From NCBI GenBank assembly GCA_002282015.1, contig NCIJ01000010.1:1-40121 (forward strand): DNA of 40,121 nt, written 5' to 3'. This document shows, in pieces, positions 27,238 to 40,020 of this stretch (position 1 is its first letter; each line of letters begins with the position of its first letter). This stretch comes from Sulfuricurvum sp. 17-40-25 (GTDB lineage: Bacteria > Campylobacterota > Campylobacteria > Campylobacterales > Sulfurimonadaceae). The notes under the pieces were generated by a model. That model had not been told where the DNA came from, did not search any database, and saw only the letters and a program-made list of their open reading frames with translations. The position numbers were made by a program, and so were the translations under genes.

Positions 27238-30200
27238 ATGTCACAATCACCAGAACTCGCCGGCGGCGAAGGTTTTACTTTTGAGGGAACCGCAGCGGCT
27301 TACTATCTCAGTTCACTGTTAGCCGAAGCATATGCCCCCGGAATCGATAACAAAACGGTTGTTCAAGTATCAGTACAACAGCGCGATTTTGGTGAACCTC
27401 TTGATGATGTTATTGTCGATTTTGAGGATATTGCAAAGAATTCCTCTCGCCTTAGTCTTCAAATCAAACGCTCTCTTACAATTAGCCAAGCTAAAACGAA
27501 TAAAGACTTTCGTGACATAATACGCGACAGCTGGGCCACATTTAATAAGCCAAATTTCCGTATAAATAATGACCGTTATGGGGCAGCAGTTGGCACAATC
27601 ACCGCTACAAAAGAACGAGCACTCAAAACTCTTTGTGATTGGGCCCGTGAAAGTCTGACAACAGACCATTTTGACACACGATTTTCGATAAGTGGCATTG
27701 CTAGTGCCGACCTCAGAACAATCAAGAATGATATAGTTGCCTTACTAGAAGAGGTAAAGGGAGCATCGTGTACAAATACAGAGGTCCATCAGTTCCTTGC
27801 ACACTTTGTACTCATCCAATTTGACTTCCTACGAGAAGGAGCAACTGATCACACAGATGCAATTAATCGTATTCAATCTTGTCTCACATCTAGTGATGCA
27901 AAGAAAGCACCTCTTGTATGGTCTCACATAGTTCAATTAGCCCGTGCATCAGCTGGCAAGGCAGGACAATTTACCCGCTCACAGCTTGTAAACCTAATCA
28001 CACCTATCGCACATCTTCAAGGTGCAACTTCTTTACGCCAAGACCTCGACCAATTAACCATTCTCGCAAAAAACTATTCGGATCTTATTCAAGACGATAT
28101 CGGTGGGACGAAGCTCAATCGAAACACATTGATAGAAGAGCTACATATTAAACTAACCAAAGCCCGCTTAGTCCAAATCCGCGGCCTACCAGGAAGTGGT
28201 AAGTCAGCTCTCATAAAGCACACCGTGCAGCATGCATTAGAGCGCGGGTCCGTCCTCTTCCTTAAAGCTGAACAACTTGAAGGCACTAGTTGGATTAGCT
28301 ACGCGAATGCACAAGGTCTTTCAAGTGTACCTTTAGAACAACTTCTCGTAGAAATCGATGCCACCGGTACTCCAATTTTCTTCATCGACGCGATTGATCG
28401 TATAGAAAAAGAACACCAACCAATCATTCTTGACGTAATTAACACCATCGTGAACTCTCCGTTACTCAGCAACTGGCGCGTTATCGTTTCTCTACGTGAT
28501 ACTGGTATTGAAATACTTCGGAATTGGTTAGGCCACCTCCTTGATGTAGTTACAGTCGAGACACTTAATACTGACCAATTGAACGATGAAGAAGCAGAGA
28601 TACTCGCAAATGCAAAACCACACCTAAGACCATTACTATTTGGAACTAGCCAAATTCAAGAGATTGTTAGACGTCCCTTTTTTGCAAAAGTGCTGAATCA
28701 AAGCTATGTGGCAGATCCAAGCATCCCAACCTTTATACCCCAATCTGAAGTAGATTTGATCGAAAATTGGTGGAAACATGGTGGCTATAATGAGTCTGGT
28801 CAAGATGCAATTGAACGCCAACAAGTATTGCTTAAATTAGCTTCTATTCATGCACGTGATCTGAGCCGACCAATTCGTCTTAGTGTGCTCACTAATGTTG
28901 CACATATCGATGATTTAAGAACAGACGGTATCCTTCAAAACGCTCGGCTTGGAATATCCTTTCGCTTTGCCCACGATATTTTCTTTGAATGGGCTTTTTT
29001 TCATGTCCTTGCCGACAAGGAAGAACAATGGGTAGATGAAATAAAGGCTTGTGGAGAACCGCCAGCAGTCGCACGTGTGGTAGAACTCCTTTCCCAGTGG
29101 GAATTTACATGCGGCAAGAACTGGGCAACAAATCTTGCCAAAACCCAAAAATCAAACCTTAGATCTCAATGGTTGCGAGCATGGCTGATTGGTCCCATTG
29201 GAACTGCAAAATTCGAAGCCGATGAAAATCAATTTACGAAGATCGTCTTTGCTGACGACTTCCAACTCTTCAGAAAAATGCTTGTCTGGTTTCAAGCGGA
29301 AAAAACTTCTCCAAATGCTAATATCTTAGCTGGTAGCTTACCACATGAAAAACGTCAGCAATTTGCTTATCTTCTTGGCTGGCCTTCCGATTTCGCCTCA
29401 TGGCGTCGGCTAATTGACTTTATTCTTCGATACATTTCAGACATTCCACAGCGTCTTTATCCGGAGATCGTTGCTATTTTCGAAGTCTGGCAGAATGCTC
29501 TATCTGATCTTCGCAATCCGACGTCTAATGCTCTTCTATTGCAATGTGCAATGTGGCTCAATGCTATTGATAGGATTGGTATATCTAATGGTCCTGATGA
29601 GAACTCAGCGTATTGGAAAAATGTGCCTAATTTAGGTGAATTCCGAAAATCTTTAGAGGCGCTACTTTTAAGGTCTGCAGGAGCTGAACCAACCTTTTCT
29701 GCCGATTACTTACAACGAATTATCAACTCAAAGTCCCTACATGAAAAAGAGTTTCACAACATTATTGCATACTCGCCATTTCTTGCCAAATCGTTGCCAA
29801 AACTACTTGCCGAACTTTCTTTAATACACTTCTGTAAGGAACTTCCAGACGATACGGCTATTCGTTTAAAAAAAGAATCTCGTGCTGCAGCTAAGATGCG
29901 TGAAGGAATTCAAGCAAAACCAGAACAAGAGCGAACACAGCTAGAGAAAATGACGCTTGCCAGCTTTCCTTCGCACCTCTTTCACGATTTTAACAGGCAC
30001 GATTGGGAACACCTATCGATATATGACAATTTCAGTAGTGCATGGCCTCCTTCACCACTTAGAGAACCATTTCACTCTCTTTTCCAGGTATCACCTAATG
30101 AAGCACTTAAACTCCTTAGAAATCTGTGCAATCACGCCATAACTGCATGGTGTCAGCTCCATCGTCATTCATATGAACGAGAGGGAGTCCCTATACCACT

Positions 30201-32586
30201 CGAACTCATATTCCCTTGGGGTAGTCAAAAGTTTTGGGGAACAGATCGGGAGTATCTTTGGTTTCGGTCAATGTTTGCACCAAAAATCATCGGTTGTGGA
30301 TTTATGGCATTGGAGGAGTGGTGTTTCGCTGAGCTAAAAAATGGTATGGCCATTGACGAGCTGATTCAGCAAATTCTGGCAGAGAACGAATGTATTGCCA
30401 TCCTTGGTACTGCCATAATGCTCTTACTGCATACGGAGTCGGTATCTGAAGTTACATTGCCTCTTGTTACTTCACAACGTCTCTTAATGGCAGATCAATA
30501 CCGATTGGTTCAAGATTATTCATCTCTTGCAAATCTGATAGGATTCACTCGCCACGATGACAATCACTTTGAAGCAGTTCAAGCAGCAAACAAACGGTCA
30601 GTTCGTAAAAAAGAACTCAAATGGTTGATTCCTAAGTTTGTATTTGGAGCTAAATCGATAAGCGATCATACTCGCAATGCTGTCCTCAACTTCAAAAACG
30701 ATTTGCCCTTTCAGTACGTGGAGCATCGCAGTATTCCGGAGATACAAGAAGAGCTCACGATTCAAGCTGTCAAATATGCAGAGTTAATTGATGAAAAGAA
30801 TTACCAAGCCTATCACACCGAAGAAAACTCTGATCAGATTGCAATTGTCCACGTCAGCCCTTCTGCTGCTGAACCTGAAAATGTCGCCAGAGCTGAAGAA
30901 GCATCAAAATGGCTTCAGTATAACAGCCTTTGGATATGGGCATCCAAGTCTTTTGAAGATAAGGTACTATGTAATACCCACTCGATTGCTAATGCGATTA
31001 CATTGGCTAAAGAAGCCGACAGCAACGATTTATTTGAATGTTTGCAAGACAATCGCGGAGAAGAGCTTCTGAGTCAATATCAAAGTGCTGTCGTCGCAAC
31101 TGCAGCCATTGTGCTCAACTTCCGAGAAGGATGCACCCTTGAAGAGCTTGAGTGGGCATACAATGTAATAAAACGAGCAAGCAAATTACCATCAATAGCT
31201 GCTTCAACGTATTCATCCAGTTCTATCATCCCGTGGCATCCCTTGATCTACGTTGCATATGGATTGGGAGCAAATATCCGCGAAGACAAAGCAATACTGG
31301 ATATAATTCTTAGCCTTCTCAAGCTCATATCAGAGCCGCTAGAAATCGTCTCATTAACCGCATTTGAAGAAGCCTGCAGTCTTTGGAATAAAGATCCAAA
31401 ACTAACTTGGACAGCACTAATCTTGGCATTATCGTTTTGTCATTATCCGTCACGATTAAGCCATCAAGTTGATAAACGAGGTGAAATACTCAATACAGCT
31501 ATTTCTTTTTATGAAAATGGGAATGGATGGTCTACTCTTCCATTACCGCCTCCAGCATGGGTAAAAGTCCAACCTAATAGAAATCGCCGCGAACATTGGG
31601 ACGACGAAGATTACAGTGATTCTGATCTGATTATCACAGATGAGTCATGGGGTGAACCTGATATATACTGGAATTCAAAGCAGGCGGCCGAAATCTTTAA
31701 ACGCATTCCTTTCGATGCACTTTTGAATAGCAGCGCAAGAAATACGTTTCTGGAGTTTCTTGCTTCTGTTCTGGACTGGACCAATCAGAAAAATGCCCCG
31801 CATTGGGTAAAGCCAGGACATCGAAATCACTCATCAACCCGTAACTTAGAATGGACCTACACGTTAGGATCGAGTCTCGGTAAAGTAGCGGGACTTATCC
31901 CTCTTGATGAATTTCAAGCTCCATTTCTCGACCGAATATTGGAATTAGAGGGTGACAATTGTTGGCATATACTTTCTTCTTTTACAGACACTTACATCTG
32001 TGCTTACGTGTATGATGCATCAGTAGTTCCAATCGATGCAATCACCATACTTAATCTCTGTCTTGAAAGGCTTCTCCATGCCCCTGTTTTCAATCGCGGA
32101 ACCTATCGAAGCGGAGAACTCTCCGGCTTTGATTTACCGAGACTTGTGCAAACTTTGATGTTTGTCTCAGTTGAACGTGCAGATTTATCCGCTCGCTACG
32201 TCAATGGCGACTGGTCAGAAATCGATCGTATTCTGCCTCTCATTAATCGTTTCATCCGTGCCGCTGGATGGGCTTCTTCCATAATGAATCCCTTTTTAAC
32301 TTTATGCGAACGGGCTAAAGCCAACTATCCAGCTGAAATCTTTGCCGATCAAGTACTATCGATTATAGGGAATGACCCCGAGGATAACCTAAAAGGATGG
32401 CATGGAACATTTATTCCGGCACAAATTGCAGAACTTGTGCAGTATTTTGCACATCGTGATGCACCAATGGAATTAGCTCTCGCTCAGAAGTTACTACAAA
32501 TCCTTGATATACTTGTTGATATGGGTGACCGGCGCAGTGCAGCACTTCAGTTAAATGAAGTTTTTCGTGAAGTCCGGTTATCCTAA
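27238..32586 (+). CDS. Avs-like STAND NTPase with N-terminal Cap4/Mrr-like nuclease domain
   Basis: The 1,782-aa protein has the three-part plan of antiviral STAND (Avs) proteins. The first part is an N-terminal nuclease-like domain (about 1-170): GFTFEGTAAAYYL start, then LDDVIVDF (55-62) and LQIKR (about 74-78), giving the D...QxK form of a PD-(D/E)xK site seen in Cap4/DUF4297-type nucleases. The second is a P-loop NTPase with Walker A GLPGSGKS (316-323) and Walker B FFIDAIDRIE (about 379-388). The third is a helical C-terminal region of about 1,200 residues that would be the sensor. Avs proteins recognise a phage protein, assemble, and degrade DNA. Its position as cargo in a mobile island fits. 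It has a 99-bp leader with a possible TATATT box near 27191; the ribosome-binding site is weak. Confidence 0.8.
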   Translation: MSQSPELAGGEGFTFEGTAAAYYLSSLLAEAYAPGIDNKTVVQVSVQQRDFGEPLDDVIVDFEDIAKNSSRLSLQIKRSLTISQAKTNKDFRDIIRDSWATFNKPNFRINNDRYGAAVGTITATKERALKTLCDWARESLTTDHFDTRFSISGIASADLRTIKNDIVALLEEVKGASCTNTEVHQFLAHFVLIQFDFLREGATDHTDAINRIQSCLTSSDAKKAPLVWSHIVQLARASAGKAGQFTRSQLVNLITPIAHLQGATSLRQDLDQLTILAKNYSDLIQDDIGGTKLNRNTLIEELHIKLTKARLVQIRGLPGSGKSALIKHTVQHALERGSVLFLKAEQLEGTSWISYANAQGLSSVPLEQLLVEIDATGTPIFFIDAIDRIEKEHQPIILDVINTIVNSPLLSNWRVIVSLRDTGIEILRNWLGHLLDVVTVETLNTDQLNDEEAEILANAKPHLRPLLFGTSQIQEIVRRPFFAKVLNQSYVADPSIPTFIPQSEVDLIENWWKHGGYNESGQDAIERQQVLLKLASIHARDLSRPIRLSVLTNVAHIDDLRTDGILQNARLGISFRFAHDIFFEWAFFHVLADKEEQWVDEIKACGEPPAVARVVELLSQWEFTCGKNWATNLAKTQKSNLRSQWLRAWLIGPIGTAKFEADENQFTKIVFADDFQLFRKMLVWFQAEKTSPNANILAGSLPHEKRQQFAYLLGWPSDFASWRRLIDFILRYISDIPQRLYPEIVAIFEVWQNALSDLRNPTSNALLLQCAMWLNAIDRIGISNGPDENSAYWKNVPNLGEFRKSLEALLLRSAGAEPTFSADYLQRIINSKSLHEKEFHNIIAYSPFLAKSLPKLLAELSLIHFCKELPDDTAIRLKKESRAAAKMREGIQAKPEQERTQLEKMTLASFPSHLFHDFNRHDWEHLSIYDNFSSAWPPSPLREPFHSLFQVSPNEALKLLRNLCNHAITAWCQLHRHSYEREGVPIPLELIFPWGSQKFWGTDREYLWFRSMFAPKIIGCGFMALEEWCFAELKNGMAIDELIQQILAENECIAILGTAIMLLLHTESVSEVTLPLVTSQRLLMADQYRLVQDYSSLANLIGFTRHDDNHFEAVQAANKRSVRKKELKWLIPKFVFGAKSISDHTRNAVLNFKNDLPFQYVEHRSIPEIQEELTIQAVKYAELIDEKNYQAYHTEENSDQIAIVHVSPSAAEPENVARAEEASKWLQYNSLWIWASKSFEDKVLCNTHSIANAITLAKEADSNDLFECLQDNRGEELLSQYQSAVVATAAIVLNFREGCTLEELEWAYNVIKRASKLPSIAASTYSSSSIIPWHPLIYVAYGLGANIREDKAILDIILSLLKLISEPLEIVSLTAFEEACSLWNKDPKLTWTALILALSFCHYPSRLSHQVDKRGEILNTAISFYENGNGWSTLPLPPPAWVKVQPNRNRREHWDDEDYSDSDLIITDESWGEPDIYWNSKQAAEIFKRIPFDALLNSSARNTFLEFLASVLDWTNQKNAPHWVKPGHRNHSSTRNLEWTYTLGSSLGKVAGLIPLDEFQAPFLDRILELEGDNCWHILSSFTDTYICAYVYDASVVPIDAITILNLCLERLLHAPVFNRGTYRSGELSGFDLPRLVQTLMFVSVERADLSARYVNGDWSEIDRILPLINRFIRAAGWASSIMNPFLTLCERAKANYPAEIFADQVLSIIGNDPEDNLKGWHGTFIPAQIAELVQYFAHRDAPMELALAQKLLQILDILVDMGDRRSAALQLNEVFREVRLS

Positions 32587-33021: not shown

Positions 33022-34713
33022 ATGACAAGTGACAGCTTATTTATTGAACAAGCGGAATATATCAATCCTGAAGATTTTATAGAGTGGTCAAGTGAACATC
33101 CGAATGAAGAAGTTATTTTAAAGAAACTAACTCAGGCGGGTGCCAAGCTCTTAACAGGTCCACGTGGATGCGGAAAAACAACATTAATGCTTAAGGCATA
33201 TAACAAGCTAAATAGTAGCAAGAATAATGGTGCATTTCCGATATATGTTAATTTTAAATTGTCACTAAAATTAGAGCCTTTATATAAAAGTAAAGCCAAT
33301 GGTGGTTATTGGTTTTCACAGTGGATGTATTTGAAGATATATGAGGGTATTTACAAGAGTCTTGAGAGCAAAGATATTGGTAAAGATGTGAATTTCCATA
33401 TCAAATTGATTGAAATTGAGAAAGCGATGAGCTTGCTCGAATTAGGCGAAATAAACAGGGAGGAATTGACAAATCTCAACCTATCAACATACATCCTTAA
33501 CAATGACATTAATATAGCAATGAATCTGGTAAATAAAACCCGATGTGTGCTATTTTTGGATGATGCAGCGCACGCATTCGCTCCTGAGCAGCAGCATGAT
33601 TTTTTTGAATTCTTTAGAAAAATCAAAAGTCGAAATATCTCTCCAAAGGCCGCAATCTACCCTGGTGTAACGAATTTTTCACCCACCTTTAATATTGGGC
33701 ATGATGCGGAAGAGATTAATGCGTGGATCAATCCAGAGGATGATAACTATTTTGCATTCATGATAATGATGCTAAGAAAAAGGCTTCCTGCGGAAGTATT
33801 CGAAAAGCTTACACAAGAGGAATCCCTTTTGTCAATTATGTGCTATGCATCATTTGGAATACCCAGAATGTTGTTGAATATGGTACGCAATATGTATGTT
33901 GAAAACGAAGAAGATGGAGAAATAACATATGAAATAAATTTCACAAGAAAAAATGTGCTCAAAGAGGTTAAAGTATGTACACAAAGCGTAATGTCTATTT
34001 ATTCATCCCTTGAGCTAAAATTACCAATTTATAAGCATTTTGTTGAAGTTGGGAATGTAGTTTTTAGCAGAATTATTGATTTGATTAAGACTTACAATAA
34101 AGATAAACAAGTAGGGCTTAAAAGTATAACCGTAGCAATCAAAAAAGAAACAAACCTTAATCTAAAGAAAATTATAGGTTTTTATCAATATGCAGGTCTT
34201 CTCAGTGAAAAAGGACAAATTAGCAAAGGGGAAAAGGGCATATTTGATCTTTATTTAATAAACCTTTCTTTTTTGATTGACAGTAATGCACTTTTTGCAG
34301 CTAAAAAAGTCAAAACAGATGATTTGGCAACAGCACTCAAGACTCGGAATGCCCACGCTTTTACTCGAACTCAAGCAGACTACTTGCTACAAGATGAGGA
34401 GTGTAAGCTTAGCTTGAGTCTTCCACCATGCCAAAAATGTGGTAAAAATAGAGATAATGAAGAGGCTAGATTCTGTTCTAATTGCGGATCACCATTAAAA
34501 GCTGCATCGATTTATGAAGAGTTAATCAATCAAGACATTGATGCTCTTCCGCTAACCACAACAAGAATCAGTGGAATAAAAAATCATTCAAATATCAAGA
34601 AGGTTAGAGATATTTTATTTGATATTGATCATAAAGAACTTAATTCCGTTCCTAGAATTGGTCAATATTGGGCTGCTAAAATTTATTACATAGCCGAGGA
34701 GTATATCTCATAA
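33022..34713 (+). CDS. Orc1/Cdc6-like P-loop ATPase with zinc ribbon and C-terminal HhH domain
   Basis: The 563-aa protein starts with an ATPase: Walker A GPRGCGKTT (about residues 47-55), Walker B CVLFLDDAAHAF (about 175-186), and a later AAA-lid-like helical region. A zinc ribbon follows (CQKCGKNRD ... FCSNCGSPL, about 472-495), then a C-terminal helix-hairpin-helix (VRDILFDIDHKELNSVPRIG followed by QYWAAKIYYIA), a DNA-binding motif. It resembles proteins annotated as ORC-CDC6 family AAA ATPases in defence islands. The stop overlaps the HEPN gene start by 1 bp (TAATG), implying coupled synthesis of a two-protein system. The gene is clearly more AT-rich than the core genes, consistent with transfer. 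Sensor and regulator roles are inferred. Confidence 0.78.
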   Translation: MTSDSLFIEQAEYINPEDFIEWSSEHPNEEVILKKLTQAGAKLLTGPRGCGKTTLMLKAYNKLNSSKNNGAFPIYVNFKLSLKLEPLYKSKANGGYWFSQWMYLKIYEGIYKSLESKDIGKDVNFHIKLIEIEKAMSLLELGEINREELTNLNLSTYILNNDINIAMNLVNKTRCVLFLDDAAHAFAPEQQHDFFEFFRKIKSRNISPKAAIYPGVTNFSPTFNIGHDAEEINAWINPEDDNYFAFMIMMLRKRLPAEVFEKLTQEESLLSIMCYASFGIPRMLLNMVRNMYVENEEDGEITYEINFTRKNVLKEVKVCTQSVMSIYSSLELKLPIYKHFVEVGNVVFSRIIDLIKTYNKDKQVGLKSITVAIKKETNLNLKKIIGFYQYAGLLSEKGQISKGEKGIFDLYLINLSFLIDSNALFAAKKVKTDDLATALKTRNAHAFTRTQADYLLQDEECKLSLSLPPCQKCGKNRDNEEARFCSNCGSPLKAASIYEELINQDIDALPLTTTRISGIKNHSNIKKVRDILFDIDHKELNSVPRIGQYWAAKIYYIAEEYIS

Positions 34714-35543
34714 TGTTGGACTGGAAGCAAACTGTTAGTGCTCCCGCCACAACAGTTAATATTGGAAATATTGCCAGTTATGTTTGTACAAGCATTCCTT
34801 CAAGTTCGCCAATAGACAATTTCTACAATGAAAGAAATAAACTTTTGAGTGCCGTATCACCGACTTATGCTACAAGTCACCCAACGGTTATACCTTTGAT
34901 TTTAGTTGGAATGATATCAATTACAGAAAATTATTTTCGAGAACTGCTGGCTGGCATAATTACCCTATGCCCAGTTGCTAAAGAAAAAAGTTCAAGTAAA
35001 GCTTTAAATTTGGCGACTATTTGGTTTGGATATAGTCAGATGGAGAAAGGTGCGTTTGAAAACATTTCATTTTCTGATGTTGATGCTGTTAAAAAAGCAT
35101 TTCAATCTTTTATTGGGTATGAAATAAAGCCAAGTAATCAACTCATTGCCCCTTTGAATGAGTTTGGAAAGTTGTGTGAATTAAGACACGCAATTGTGCA
35201 TAGCGCCAGTATTCTAGCTGGAAAAAATGCTATAAAATTGCAATTACCTGGCTCAGGAAATCCGGTAAGGGTTCAAGTTGGATTTTCTGAATTACAAGAA
35301 GCGGCAGAAGTTTGTACATCTCTAATTTGTGCAGTTAATTTGGATTTATTTGAATTACTTTCACGAAGATGGTTGTTTGAGTGGCCAGGAACACCTGCGT
35401 ATATAGGACAAGATATGAACCAACTTTTTCGGAAAGTCTGGAACTTGTTTTATTCAAATTTTGATGCCACGAATGGATTAATTTCTCAGCCCCTAACTTA
35501 TGTCAAAACAAAAAACCTTATCATATCTACAAATGCTTCATAG
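34713..35543 (+). CDS. HEPN-domain protein, candidate RNase effector
   Basis: The 276-aa, mostly helical product contains the HEPN signature R158-H-A-I-V-H163 (CELRHAIVHSAS), the Rx4H form with His after Arg that is typical of RiboL-PSP/MAE_28990-type HEPN ribonucleases. The upstream helix VIPLILVGMISITENYFRELL is the usual HEPN partner helix. HEPN proteins act as RNases in toxin-antitoxin, Abi and CRISPR systems. Paired by a 1-bp overlap with the ATPase, it is the likely killing arm that the ATPase controls. No transmembrane segments are seen. The catalytic role is inferred from the motif; it could also be a non-catalytic dimer partner. Confidence 0.75.
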   Translation: MLDWKQTVSAPATTVNIGNIASYVCTSIPSSSPIDNFYNERNKLLSAVSPTYATSHPTVIPLILVGMISITENYFRELLAGIITLCPVAKEKSSSKALNLATIWFGYSQMEKGAFENISFSDVDAVKKAFQSFIGYEIKPSNQLIAPLNEFGKLCELRHAIVHSASILAGKNAIKLQLPGSGNPVRVQVGFSELQEAAEVCTSLICAVNLDLFELLSRRWLFEWPGTPAYIGQDMNQLFRKVWNLFYSNFDATNGLISQPLTYVKTKNLIISTNAS

Positions 35544-35720: not shown

Positions 35721-36522
35721 AAAAGAACGGGTCAAATCGGCTCTATTGAGTAATGAGTTCACCTTTCCTCCCAAACGACTAACCGTTAACTTAGCACCCA
35801 GTGATTTACGCAAAGAAGGATCGCATTTTGATCTCGCAGTAGCTGTTTTGATTGCTTTAGGCAATGATGAGAGTACTCTGGATGAGTGGCATGTATTTGG
35901 AGAACTAGGATTGGATGGCTCCGTAACCGAAAATACCCTTCTTTATCCAATCATCCTATCCTTAGCCAACAAAGGAGCAATTACTAAAGCCATTGTCCCG
36001 ATCAATAGCATCAATAAGCTCTCAAAAATACCTAATATCTCTTTTTACGGTGTTTCGACACTTACCGATACCTTACAGCTATTACGGTCTAAAGAAACGA
36101 TCCCACACGCGCAATCAACATCGTTTGAATTTCCCTCAACATTGCATAATGCGCAAGCCTATTATCATCATGAAAACTACCCTTTGGATTTTAAAGATAT
36201 AAAAGGACAAGAACATGCCAAACGTGCAGCACTTATCAGTGCTGCAGGGATGCATAATATACTGCTCGAAGGTTCTCCGGGATCTGGAAAATCGATGATA
36301 GCGAAACGTTTACAGCATATCCTTCCTCCACTCAACAACACTGAAATGCTTGATTGTGCAAAGCTCGAAATATTAGAGGGTAAGGAGCCTTCATTTGCAC
36401 CTCTACGCCCCTTTAGGTCACCACACCATACCAGTACGGCAGCAAGTATATTTGGAGGAGGAAGTCACAAAGCGCAAATTGGGGAAGTAGGATTAGCCCA
36501 TAACGGTATATTATTTTTCTAG
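35716..36522 (+). pseudogene. comM: comM, central fragment, truncated again inside Walker B
   Basis: The frame opens at the element boundary with ESKERVKSALL and continues through the N-terminal Lon-like domain (PPKRLTVNLAPSDLRKEGSH) and the ATPase Walker A (EGSPGSGKSM), plus the RPFRSPHHTST loop typical of ComM. It ends AHNGILFF followed directly by TAG, where the family has NGILFFDE, so the break falls within Walker B. About 190 C-terminal residues found in normal ComM (about 500 aa) are absent and do not reappear in the window. An internal TTG at 35746 could start translation, but the product would be dead. Confidence 0.92.
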
Positions 36523-37736: not shown

Positions 37737-37756
37737 AAAATCGCGGTATCGCGAAT
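37737..37756 (+). promoter_or_regulatory. Upstream operator-like palindrome of the fic gene
   Basis: A 20-bp site with core TCGCGGTATCGCGA, itself nearly palindromic. Its exact reverse complement occurs at 37831-37850. The CG-rich core stands out in a very AT-rich gap. Confidence 0.65.
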
Positions 37757-37791
37757 TATTAAACAATTAATACTTAAATCACTTTAAGAAA

Positions 37792-37800
37792 TGCTATAAT
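37792..37800 (+). promoter_or_regulatory. Extended -10 promoter of the fic gene
   Basis: TGCTATAAT is a consensus extended -10 located between the two operator-like palindromes, 71 bp before the fic ATG. Binding at both sites could loop out or bend this promoter. Confidence 0.55.
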
Positions 37801-37830
37801 TACTTTTATATGGCTTAAAATAATTAATAT

Positions 37831-37850
37831 ATTCGCGATACCGCGATTTT
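37831..37850 (-). promoter_or_regulatory. Downstream operator-like palindrome of the fic gene
   Basis: This is a perfect 20-bp inverted copy of the site at 37737-37756 (core TCGCGATACCGCGA). It lies downstream of the expected start point and 20 bp before the ATG, a position suited to blocking transcription or translation. Confidence 0.65.
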
Positions 37851-37870
37851 TTTACGGAAATGAGGCAAAA

Positions 37871-39364
37871 ATGATATGGATTTCAAATAAAGAGAATAAA
37901 GACCAAATCAGTCGAGGGGTTAAATCTGGGAAACTGAAGAAAATAGCACCAAAGATATACATACAAACAGCACGTGCCGAAGAAGAAGAGATCAAAACAA
38001 ACATCATTGCCATTCTTAATGAACTTGCCCCGGGTGGAGCAATTGCCTACAGGAGTGCATTGCTCCCAATAATCCGAGTACCGGGCGAGATAATTATACT
38101 GGCGGACAAAAATAAAACCATAAAGCTTGGCACAACTGTCACGATCATGCTTGTCGAAGACAAAGATGGAATGCTGACAGAGGGCAACAGAGGACTACTA
38201 AGCAAAATGGTAGACTACGATGGCTATACCGTTCTGAAGACTAAAGCCATATTAGACAACCTCTCTAAAGCAGTAGCGCCGAAGTATCGTGACTTTACCC
38301 TTGCAGTGGAAATGATCAAAAATGATGTTTACTCCAGAAATGGAGACGCAGAAAAGAACCAATTTCTACGCGATGAATTTATTCGAGTTGGCAAAAGTGC
38401 CGGCATGGCGGAAGAAGTCAGGATTGCGCTAACAATCATCGATAAAGCCGAAAAATATTTCTTGGAGACATACGGTTCTACGGTTGATTATAAACGACTC
38501 GTGATGTTTAAAAAGCTCTCAGAGGCTCTAGTCAATAGTCAGACGCTAAGCGAATTATCTGAAGAGCTTGTGTTGACAAATAAGATATCTCAGCGGGAGA
38601 TGGAACATACTGCTTTTTTTGAATCGTATTTTAGTAACTACATCGAAGGGACAAAGTTCCCAGAGGATGAAGCTAGGGATATCGTTTTTGGGGCAAATGT
38701 TCCATATGAAAGACATTCGGACGGGCACGATCTTCTTTCGCTGTATAGACTTTCGCTGATGCATGAAATGAATCCGCAGGCGATTGTTGGTTCGGACGAT
38801 TTCATAAAGAAGCTCAAAGAGTGGCACTTGTACTTCTTGGAACACGCTCAAAGCAAACACCCTGGAGAGTTTAAAAAAAGGAAAAATATAGCCGGCTCTA
38901 CTTTCTTTGTGGACCCATCCAGAGTAGAGACTATGCTTCGATATGTTTATGATATAGGAGAAGAGATTGTTGACCCAACAAAAAAGGCTCTTTTTATGTC
39001 ATTGGCGTTCACAGAAGTCCACCCTTTCGATGATGGAAACGGGCGGATATCCAGACTTTTGATGAATATGATATTGTCACAAAGTGGACGAAAAAGGATC
39101 ATATTCCCGACAGTTTTTCGCCAAGACTACAACCTCACACTCAAAGCGTTCTCTTCTCAGGAGAAATGTTCCGGTATTGTTAAGTTTACGGAGCAGCTTC
39201 TTACGGCAAACGTTGAAATGGATTTTGCCTGCTCACTTGATGACACGGTTGAGTTTTTAAAGGCGCGAAGAGCTTTTGATGAAGATGACATGGCAAGGTG
39301 GAACAGTGAGATACAGGACAGGGAAATCTTTTCTTTGACGGTACAATCAGGAAGCGAGAATTGA
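37871..39364 (+). CDS. AbiEi-like winged-helix domain fused to a Fic domain (class II)
   Basis: The 497-aa product combines two toxin-antitoxin modules. The N-terminus (about 1-130) has the winged-helix pattern of AbiEi-type antitoxins (QISRGVKSGKLKKIAPKIYI, then the AYRSALLPIIR region). The C-terminal half is Fic: catalytic HPFDDGNGR (residues 384-392, His384 with Arg following) and the inhibitory-helix motif S255-NYI-E259-G260 of the (S/T)xxxE(G/N) form, N-terminal to the Fic core (class II). Fic enzymes AMPylate or similarly modify target proteins. The paired operators suggest autorepression through the wHTH, as in AbiE systems. The ATG at 37871 has GGAAATGAGG upstream. Confidence 0.87.
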   Translation: MIWISNKENKDQISRGVKSGKLKKIAPKIYIQTARAEEEEIKTNIIAILNELAPGGAIAYRSALLPIIRVPGEIIILADKNKTIKLGTTVTIMLVEDKDGMLTEGNRGLLSKMVDYDGYTVLKTKAILDNLSKAVAPKYRDFTLAVEMIKNDVYSRNGDAEKNQFLRDEFIRVGKSAGMAEEVRIALTIIDKAEKYFLETYGSTVDYKRLVMFKKLSEALVNSQTLSELSEELVLTNKISQREMEHTAFFESYFSNYIEGTKFPEDEARDIVFGANVPYERHSDGHDLLSLYRLSLMHEMNPQAIVGSDDFIKKLKEWHLYFLEHAQSKHPGEFKKRKNIAGSTFFVDPSRVETMLRYVYDIGEEIVDPTKKALFMSLAFTEVHPFDDGNGRISRLLMNMILSQSGRKRIIFPTVFRQDYNLTLKAFSSQEKCSGIVKFTEQLLTANVEMDFACSLDDTVEFLKARRAFDEDDMARWNSEIQDREIFSLTVQSGSEN

Positions 39365-39492: not shown

Positions 39493-39506
39493 AAAATATT
39501 TATAAA

Positions 39507-39638
39507 CGTTAGTAACTGGTCCATTTTTGGCGAATAAATTAACTTAAACAGTGTGAAATGGCAGTTATATAAGGGATTTAATTCCAAATAAGCGGTTAAT
39601 AAGAACCTTCAGAACAATTCTTGGCCAAACTACTAACG
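39507..39638. repeat. Inverted repeat enclosing a 132-bp noncoding segment
   Basis: CGTTAGTA (39507-39514) is exactly inverted at 39631-39638 (TACTAACG), with partial extension into neighbouring CTGG/CCAAA bases. The segment between is AT-rich and noncoding. It could be a small nonautonomous element or a recombination site; it does not fit the attC core rules. Confidence 0.3.
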
Positions 39639-39639
39639 C

Positions 39640-40020
39640 TTATTTGCTTTCTTTGGAATTCAAAAAGAGTTCCCTGTAAGCGAGCACTGCACCGTCATGA
39701 AGATAAAGAATTCTCCCATCGTTGGTCTTTGATGATTCTTTAATACAGACATATCCTTTATTAATTAGAATTGAACGGTAAGTGCCTCGCACGATATCAC
39801 CCATTCCCCACACGCCGTCACCATCTATATCAAGATGGTAATCTGGAAATAGGCATCTCATTATCCTTACAAAAACTTTTGGGGAAATCTTGCGAAGAGA
39901 CATTCGATTGATATTTTGGTTGTCCTTTACGTAATACCTGAATTCTCCAAGTTTCATATTCGGGATTGATTTTATCCCCTTGTCACCATTGGTATAGCCA
40001 ACCTGGCTAAGCTTGATCAT
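39640..40020 (-). CDS. Unknown 126-aa protein paired with a Phd/YefM-like antitoxin
   Basis: This soluble, basic protein (MIKLSQVGYTNGDKGIKSIP, later FPDYHLDIDGDGVWGMGDIV) belongs to no family I can name. Its ATG lies inside the antitoxin-like gene (14-bp overlap), the usual coupling of antitoxin-toxin pairs, so a toxin role is possible. The central Asp-rich DIDGDG segment could bind a metal, as EF-hand-like loops do, but this is speculative. The gene is transcribed away from the window edge. Confidence 0.5.
   Translation of the reverse strand: MIKLSQVGYTNGDKGIKSIPNMKLGEFRYYVKDNQNINRMSLRKISPKVFVRIMRCLFPDYHLDIDGDGVWGMGDIVRGTYRSILINKGYVCIKESSKTNDGRILYLHDGAVLAYRELFLNSKESK

Follow-up and report, generated by a model that had tools for sequence, protein, structure and literature searches.

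A 497-residue protein of Sulfuricurvum sp. 17-40-25 (positions 37871–39364, plus strand; assigned by open reading frame, translation and alignment) appears to carry an AbiEi-like DNA-binding half and a class II Fic domain in a single chain. We consider it probable, at about 0.7, that this protein is a self-restrained toxin, i.e., that its AbiEi-like half represses its own promoter and Glu259 quiets its Fic domain, where binding, repression and AMPylation are what we infer. The gene lies in a stretch of 40,121 nucleotides that was analyzed as a whole and is called the window throughout. Little is known about what holds class II Fic proteins in check (PMC9755527).

The Fic half was recognized by Pfam at residues 314–402 (38810–39076, plus strand) with an E value of 1.2e-11 and a score of 45.8 bits (cut-off 24). 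From translation and alignment, the active-site motif H384-PFDDGNGRIS-R395 (HPFDDGNGRISR) was located at 39020–39055 on the plus strand. It follows the class II Fic pattern HPFx[D/E]GN[G/K]RxxR, and its key residues were invariant in 11 of 11 aligned family sequences. The first-pass annotation had proposed a Glu in an S-x3-E-G motif as an internal brake. This class II inhibitory helix motif, S255-N-Y-I-E259-G260, is indeed in place N-terminal to the Fic motif (38633–38650, plus strand; translation and alignment) and conforms to the pattern (S/T)xxxE(G/N), with S255, E259 and G260 invariant in the same 11-sequence alignment. The structure model of the Fic half was of good quality and matched FICD, SoFic and other Fic structures at Z 20–23. 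Sofic was also the best PADLOC match of the window protein (E 2e-15, residues 213–407); the curated cut-off of the NCBIfam SoFic family (NF046030) was missed with 17.6 versus 550 bits. By its motifs, the window protein is hence a predicted class II Fic protein that stands outside the curated SoFic family. Its Fic region had eight matches in its own genome, on contigs C12, C16, C44, C50, C11 and C34, which makes many Fic genes for a genome of 2.3 Mb.

Sequence searches gave little on the N-terminal half. Pfam and NCBIfam contained nothing convincing for the first 240 residues of any family member, and the PADLOC AbiEi match of the window protein was weak (E 0.0016, residues 11–153), as were those of several other members (best E 0.001–0.015). 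A PDB sequence-profile search with the N-terminal alignment returned coiled-coil chance hits and nothing else, and a BFVD search gave no significant match. Because the window protein's own N-terminal model was of low confidence, the fold assignment rests on the homologue L033, whose N-terminal 239 residues were modelled from a 12-sequence alignment including the window protein, and with confidence (mean pLDDT 87). Among solved structures, this model was closest to Streptococcus agalactiae AbiEi (6y8q; Z 9.8, 156 aligned residues, rmsd 4.4, model residues 1–194), followed by Mycobacterium tuberculosis Rv2827c (1zel; Z 6.9, 187 aligned residues) and then by MenT1 and other nucleotidyltransferases over residues of about 48 to 196. 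Foldseek likewise ranked AbiEi first (E 6.7e-3). The window protein and L033 are colinear homologues over their full length (about 30% identity, E 3e-56), and the fold assignment was therefore passed to the window protein. On this model, its N-terminal half appears to resemble a whole AbiEi protein, with a winged helix-turn-helix as putative operator reader at residues 1–45 (37871–38005, plus strand) and a C-terminal-domain-like region, also like a nucleotidyltransferase fold, at residues of about 46–196 (38006–38458, plus strand; L033 model and PADLOC), both boundaries being approximate. The AbiEi-like domain fused to Fic that had been proposed from the letters of the sequence was thus recovered, and apparently with both AbiEi domains rather than the DNA-binding one alone.

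Upstream of the gene, an inverted-repeat search located two operator-like sites. The distal site AAAATCGCGGTATCGCGAAT occupies 37737–37756 on the plus strand (core 37741–37754) and the proximal site ATTCGCGATACCGCGATTTT 37831–37850 on the minus strand (core 37833–37846); they form a perfect inverted pair, identical at 20 of 20 bases with 74 nt between them. Their 14-mer core TCGCGGTATCGCGA has two mismatches to its own reverse complement, both in the middle. Between the sites, we read an extended −10 promoter element TGCTATAAT from the sequence (37792–37800, plus strand) with a weak −35; it was absent from the output of a consensus promoter scan. A likely Shine-Dalgarno sequence, GAGG (37863–37866, plus strand), precedes the ATG at 37871, and the proximal site, which ends 20 bp short of this ATG, would fall within the leader. 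With these coordinates, the first-pass description of two perfectly inverted, nearly palindromic 20-bp operators around an extended −10 was confirmed. The decisive feature of the pair is the uniqueness of its GC-rich word; length by itself is not decisive. The longest exact inverted repeat in other 200-nt tiles of the contig measured 14 nt, and at least one of 400 shuffles of the AT-rich promoter stretch also reached 20 nt (shuffle maximum 20). The core matched four times in the window versus 0.11 expected, and a search of the whole 2.3-Mb genome found the exact core at these two places only. No genome among 40 others of the genus has the site pair. In virus contigs, 52 hold one exact 15-mer copy each of the operator word and none holds two, and a search of plasmid DNA gave weak AT-rich matches at most. 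Judged by position, both sites are placed so as to block the promoter, consistent with a putative repression.

The relatives of the fusion have upstream repeats of their own in place of the window's operator word and inverted layout, neither of which was found there. Examples are AACAAAAGTTTGCA (five copies, homologue L072), AAAAACACGACA (four to five copies, L042), TTGTTGACATTA (two copies, L066), GAAAATATTTTGCA (L078) and TCTTATCAGACT (two copies, L040). These repeats are mostly AT-rich and are not terminator hairpins; the words vary between lineages, and one pair of upstream regions alone was clearly sequence-related. We scanned the window and 18 homologues for direct repeats with at least 10/12 identity at all 106 lags from 14 to 119. 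Lag 31 was the tallest, with 10 of 19 sequences at threshold versus 0.25 expected, and lags 32 and 41 each had 4 of 19 (0.17 and 0.15 expected), whereas no other lag rose above three sequences. Taken together, lags 30–32 were occupied in 14 of 19 sequences and, among AT-rich control windows of these loci, in 5 of 216; once homologue L094 had been added, the count was 15 of 20 (shuffle mean 0.60, maximum 4 in 300). L094, which joined after the first test, also shows repeats about 31 bp apart. Hence, with the window excluded, 15 of 19 homologues have direct repeats 30–32 bp apart, some of them also at 41 bp, and the proximal repeat pair usually lies near −68/−37. The 31-bp step had been noticed before the test, and the loci tested were for the most part those on which it was noticed; scanning every lag and including controls reduces this bias without abolishing it. 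Among other Fic genes of related genomes, 1 of 16 had such a repeat at 10/12 or better, i.e., they did not show the 31-bp rule. For the window itself, an earlier statistic that counted repeats did not reach significance (p about 0.35); the lag test is the more informative of the two.

Steps of 31 and 41 bp correspond to three and four helical turns, so that the repeats face the same side of the double helix. That the words differ while the helical spacing is shared speaks for a family-wide autoregulation, probably exerted by the fusion protein at its own promoter. The window is the odd member of the family. Direct repeats at 31 bp are absent from it (best 9/12); instead it has a single inverted pair. 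In the direct register, where 15 of 20 bases agree, the two sites are separated by 92 bp, and in the inverted register by 94 bp, near three steps of 31; a loss of the middle steps from such an array is no more than a suggestion. The autoregulation proposed in the first-pass annotation hence gained the family-wide upstream repeats, but its layout of two inverted operators is not the family rule, which is direct repeats at about 31 or about 41 bp. Homologues lacking the operators had been named there as counter-evidence; the window's word and arrangement are in fact not conserved, whereas the principle of upstream repeats is.

The fusion is rare and scattered. It occurred in 1 of 397 genomes sampled from the window's own phylum, i.e., in the window's genome alone, and in 5 of 398 sampled from another phylum, and a protein search of 36 of the 40 other genomes of the genus found no full-length gene. 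Full-length relatives are sporadic in Proteobacteria and Bacteroidota, on plasmids and virus-like contigs, with 24–31% identity, and the closest homologue found was only about 31% identical to the window protein. Over its full length, the architecture is kept colinear in Alpha-, Beta- and Gammaproteobacteria and in Bacteroidota. Plasmid-borne relatives came from Sphingorhabdus, Novosphingobium, Neorhizobium, Rhizobium, Variovorax, Alteromonas, Hymenobacter, Bacteroides and Phocaeicola; others were found in metagenome-assembled genomes. Scanning virus contigs with the family alignment gave 24 loci, and with the single window protein no match; a homologue used as query against a phage collection gave no match either. 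Genes adjoining the relatives include hipA, DUF6088, recombinase and RhuM genes. This patchy spread on plasmids and virus-like contigs is a mobile-element pattern.

Solo DUF6088 genes near relatives (L039:1438-1690, L044:855-900) are preceded by long palindromes such as AACGATGTCAAGTTTTTACATGTAAAAACTTGACATCGTT, whereas the fusions have direct repeats. On an Acetobacter plasmid, a Fic gene with a related Fic part (L100:1239-2135) adjoins an annotated AbiEii toxin gene. Within the window, a Mg-chelatase/ComM (YifB)-like reading frame (35746–36522) ends early after ...GILFF and is apparently a truncated gene at the island edge. An ORC-CDC6-like ATPase with a zinc ribbon is followed, with a one-base overlap, by a possible HEPN protein (33022–35543), and the two may be a defence pair. 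A 1782-residue protein (27238–32586) matches PADLOC DUF626_VIII with its first 260 residues (E 1e-28).

A second promoter in the same genome bears on the question of which protein reads the sites. On contig C44 (C44:4325-4425, equivalent to L056:1826-1926), 102 bp that are 76% like the window promoter face a hipA-like gene. The distal site of this copy keeps TCGCG....CGCGA, with changes confined to the central four bases of the core, which we counted as support for site reading by the fusion; of the proximal site, one half is present, at roughly the distance seen in the window. A 50-bp piece of the 3′ flank of the window Fic gene (90%) adjoins the C44 copy, with no AbiEi-Fic gene between. The C44 promoter could be the remnant of a copy since lost, or else a second target acted on in trans. 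Further repeats lie close by. Inverted repeats of about 20 bp of the AAACGTTAGTA / TACTAACGTTT type, 98 nt apart, occur in an 84% identical stretch at window 39502–39643 and C44:4838-5043, and on C44 they precede a DUF4172-Fic gene. Imperfect inverted repeats of its own, TTCTCGTGACA / TGTCACGAGAA, lie close to the start of the hipA-like gene (L056:1679-1771), a second case of paired repeats ahead of a toxin-type gene.

The C44 copy can also be turned against the fusion as reader: with a diverged promoter copy facing a hipA-like gene, the sites are not private to the fusion gene and might serve another regulator, e.g., that of a neighbouring or paralogous toxin-antitoxin gene, while the AbiEi-like half would read other DNA or have lost binding. 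The departure of the window layout from the direct repeats of the family would agree with this, and the relatives' upstream repeats, too, could be read by another factor. However, relatives with other neighbours still have repeats, made of different words, just upstream of the fusion gene, and the window word occurs nowhere else in the genome without mismatch, so that we regard a foreign regulator as quite unlikely. The inverted copies might, on the other hand, be no operators at all, but a pair of hairpins resembling terminators, or the termini of a MITE-like insertion of 114 bp. Each copy can be drawn as a 5-bp stem with a 4-nt loop followed by T, the proximal one on the plus strand as a weak terminator-like hairpin with T7 (−6.8 kcal/mol), and the whole 114 bp are bounded by 20-bp terminal inverted repeats and loosely self-complementary. 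Yet two terminator-like sites are at the shuffle level (mean 1.8), strong termination in the leader would shut the gene off, and the repeats of relatives are mostly AT-rich and form no terminator hairpins. We rejected the MITE or terminator pair as very unlikely on these grounds together with the lack of a target-site duplication visible in the sequence and the presence of one diverged relative in the genome rather than a family of copies.

A further alternative leaves the promoter aside, and autorepression may still hold under it: the Fic half might be a housekeeping or signalling AMPylase/de-AMPylase under DNA-binding control and not a toxin. There is precedent in CbFic2 of Coxiella, in which DNA binding stimulates AMPylation and de-AMPylation (PMC10628234). 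The patchy distribution (1 of 397 in its own phylum, 5 of 398 in another) speaks against such a role, and the plasmid and virus-like contexts better fit a mobile toxin or defence gene; we hence hold this alternative to be unlikely.

Several known systems share parts of this build. AbiEi acts as a repressor at its own promoter, whose repeats it binds (PMC7319586), and the predicted fold of the fusion's N-terminal half is like that of the AbiEi antitoxins 6y8q and 1zel. AbiEi, however, is a protein on its own with a DUF1814 nucleotidyltransferase as partner, whereas the fusion has its Fic toxin in the same chain. The analogy to AbiEi paired repeats that had been drawn from the sequence is loose in geometry: the promoter has repeats, with 74 nt between them, versus 3 bp between the 23-bp repeats of AbiEi (PMC7319586) and 3–13 bp over the AbiEi antitoxins. 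No Pfam match to the AbiE partner DUF1814/AbiEii was found among the flanking reading frames, the right flank being short as the contig ends at 40121; with no AbiEii partner found in its flanks, the locus is by its gene content not an AbiE type IV toxin-antitoxin system. The Yersinia pseudotuberculosis Fic protein CccR represses its own promoter via inverted repeats with an attached helix-turn-helix (PMC9755527). CccR is the closest precedent. Like CccR, the fusion unites a DNA-binding domain and a class II Fic domain, inhibitory helix included, in a single polypeptide. In CccR, which is SoFic-like, the helix-turn-helix is C-terminal; the DNA-binding domain of the fusion is N-terminal and its architecture hence not that of CccR. 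The CccR operator, two 10-bp repeats with 26 bp between, lies near −35/−10, and CccR is without an AbiEi-type domain and was reported as a secreted T6SS effector (PMC9755527). SoFic/Sofic defence proteins have a class II Fic core with an N-terminal inhibitory helix, as in the fusion, and are without the AbiEi half (PMC12249575). In Coxiella burnetii CbFic2, a Fic enzyme is combined with a DNA-binding helix-turn-helix and DNA binding alters enzymatic activity; its helix-turn-helix is C-terminal, its reported eukaryotic target is histone H3, and the accessible text describes no operator array (PMC10628234). We found no description of an AbiEi-Fic fusion in the open-access literature, to which this search was confined, subscription papers being outside its scope. 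The principle of an autorepressing Fic protein is known from one other Fic protein, CccR, and the AbiEi-Fic build and its spacing rule appear undescribed.

We propose that the AbiEi-like half, i.e., winged helix-turn-helix and C-terminal domain, would bind the two CGCG-bearing sites around the extended −10 and would repress the promoter of the fusion gene. What little protein is made would have its Fic domain kept quiet by the class II inhibitory helix and its Glu259. A trigger that relieves repression or autoinhibition would let the Fic domain AMPylate a bacterial target, with growth arrest as the result, and the biological role may be to stabilise a mobile element or to defend against phages. 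A more far-reaching version is doubtful, namely that a horizontally spread, undescribed toxin family has AbiEi welded to Fic, 31/41-bp operator arrays and an operator occupancy coupled to AMPylation, such that operator loss or titration releases the enzyme. If this coupling were true, loss of operator DNA with the element, or copies borne by an invader, would release the enzyme.

The family combines an AbiEi-type repressor in the same chain with a simple operator rule, i.e., an own word at a phase of about 31 bp near −68/−37, and this rule opens autoregulation to direct tests in many unrelated hosts. The set of protein-operator pairs may help to establish how the AbiEi winged helix selects the sequence it reads, and the fusion would link the worlds of type IV (AbiE) and Fic toxins.
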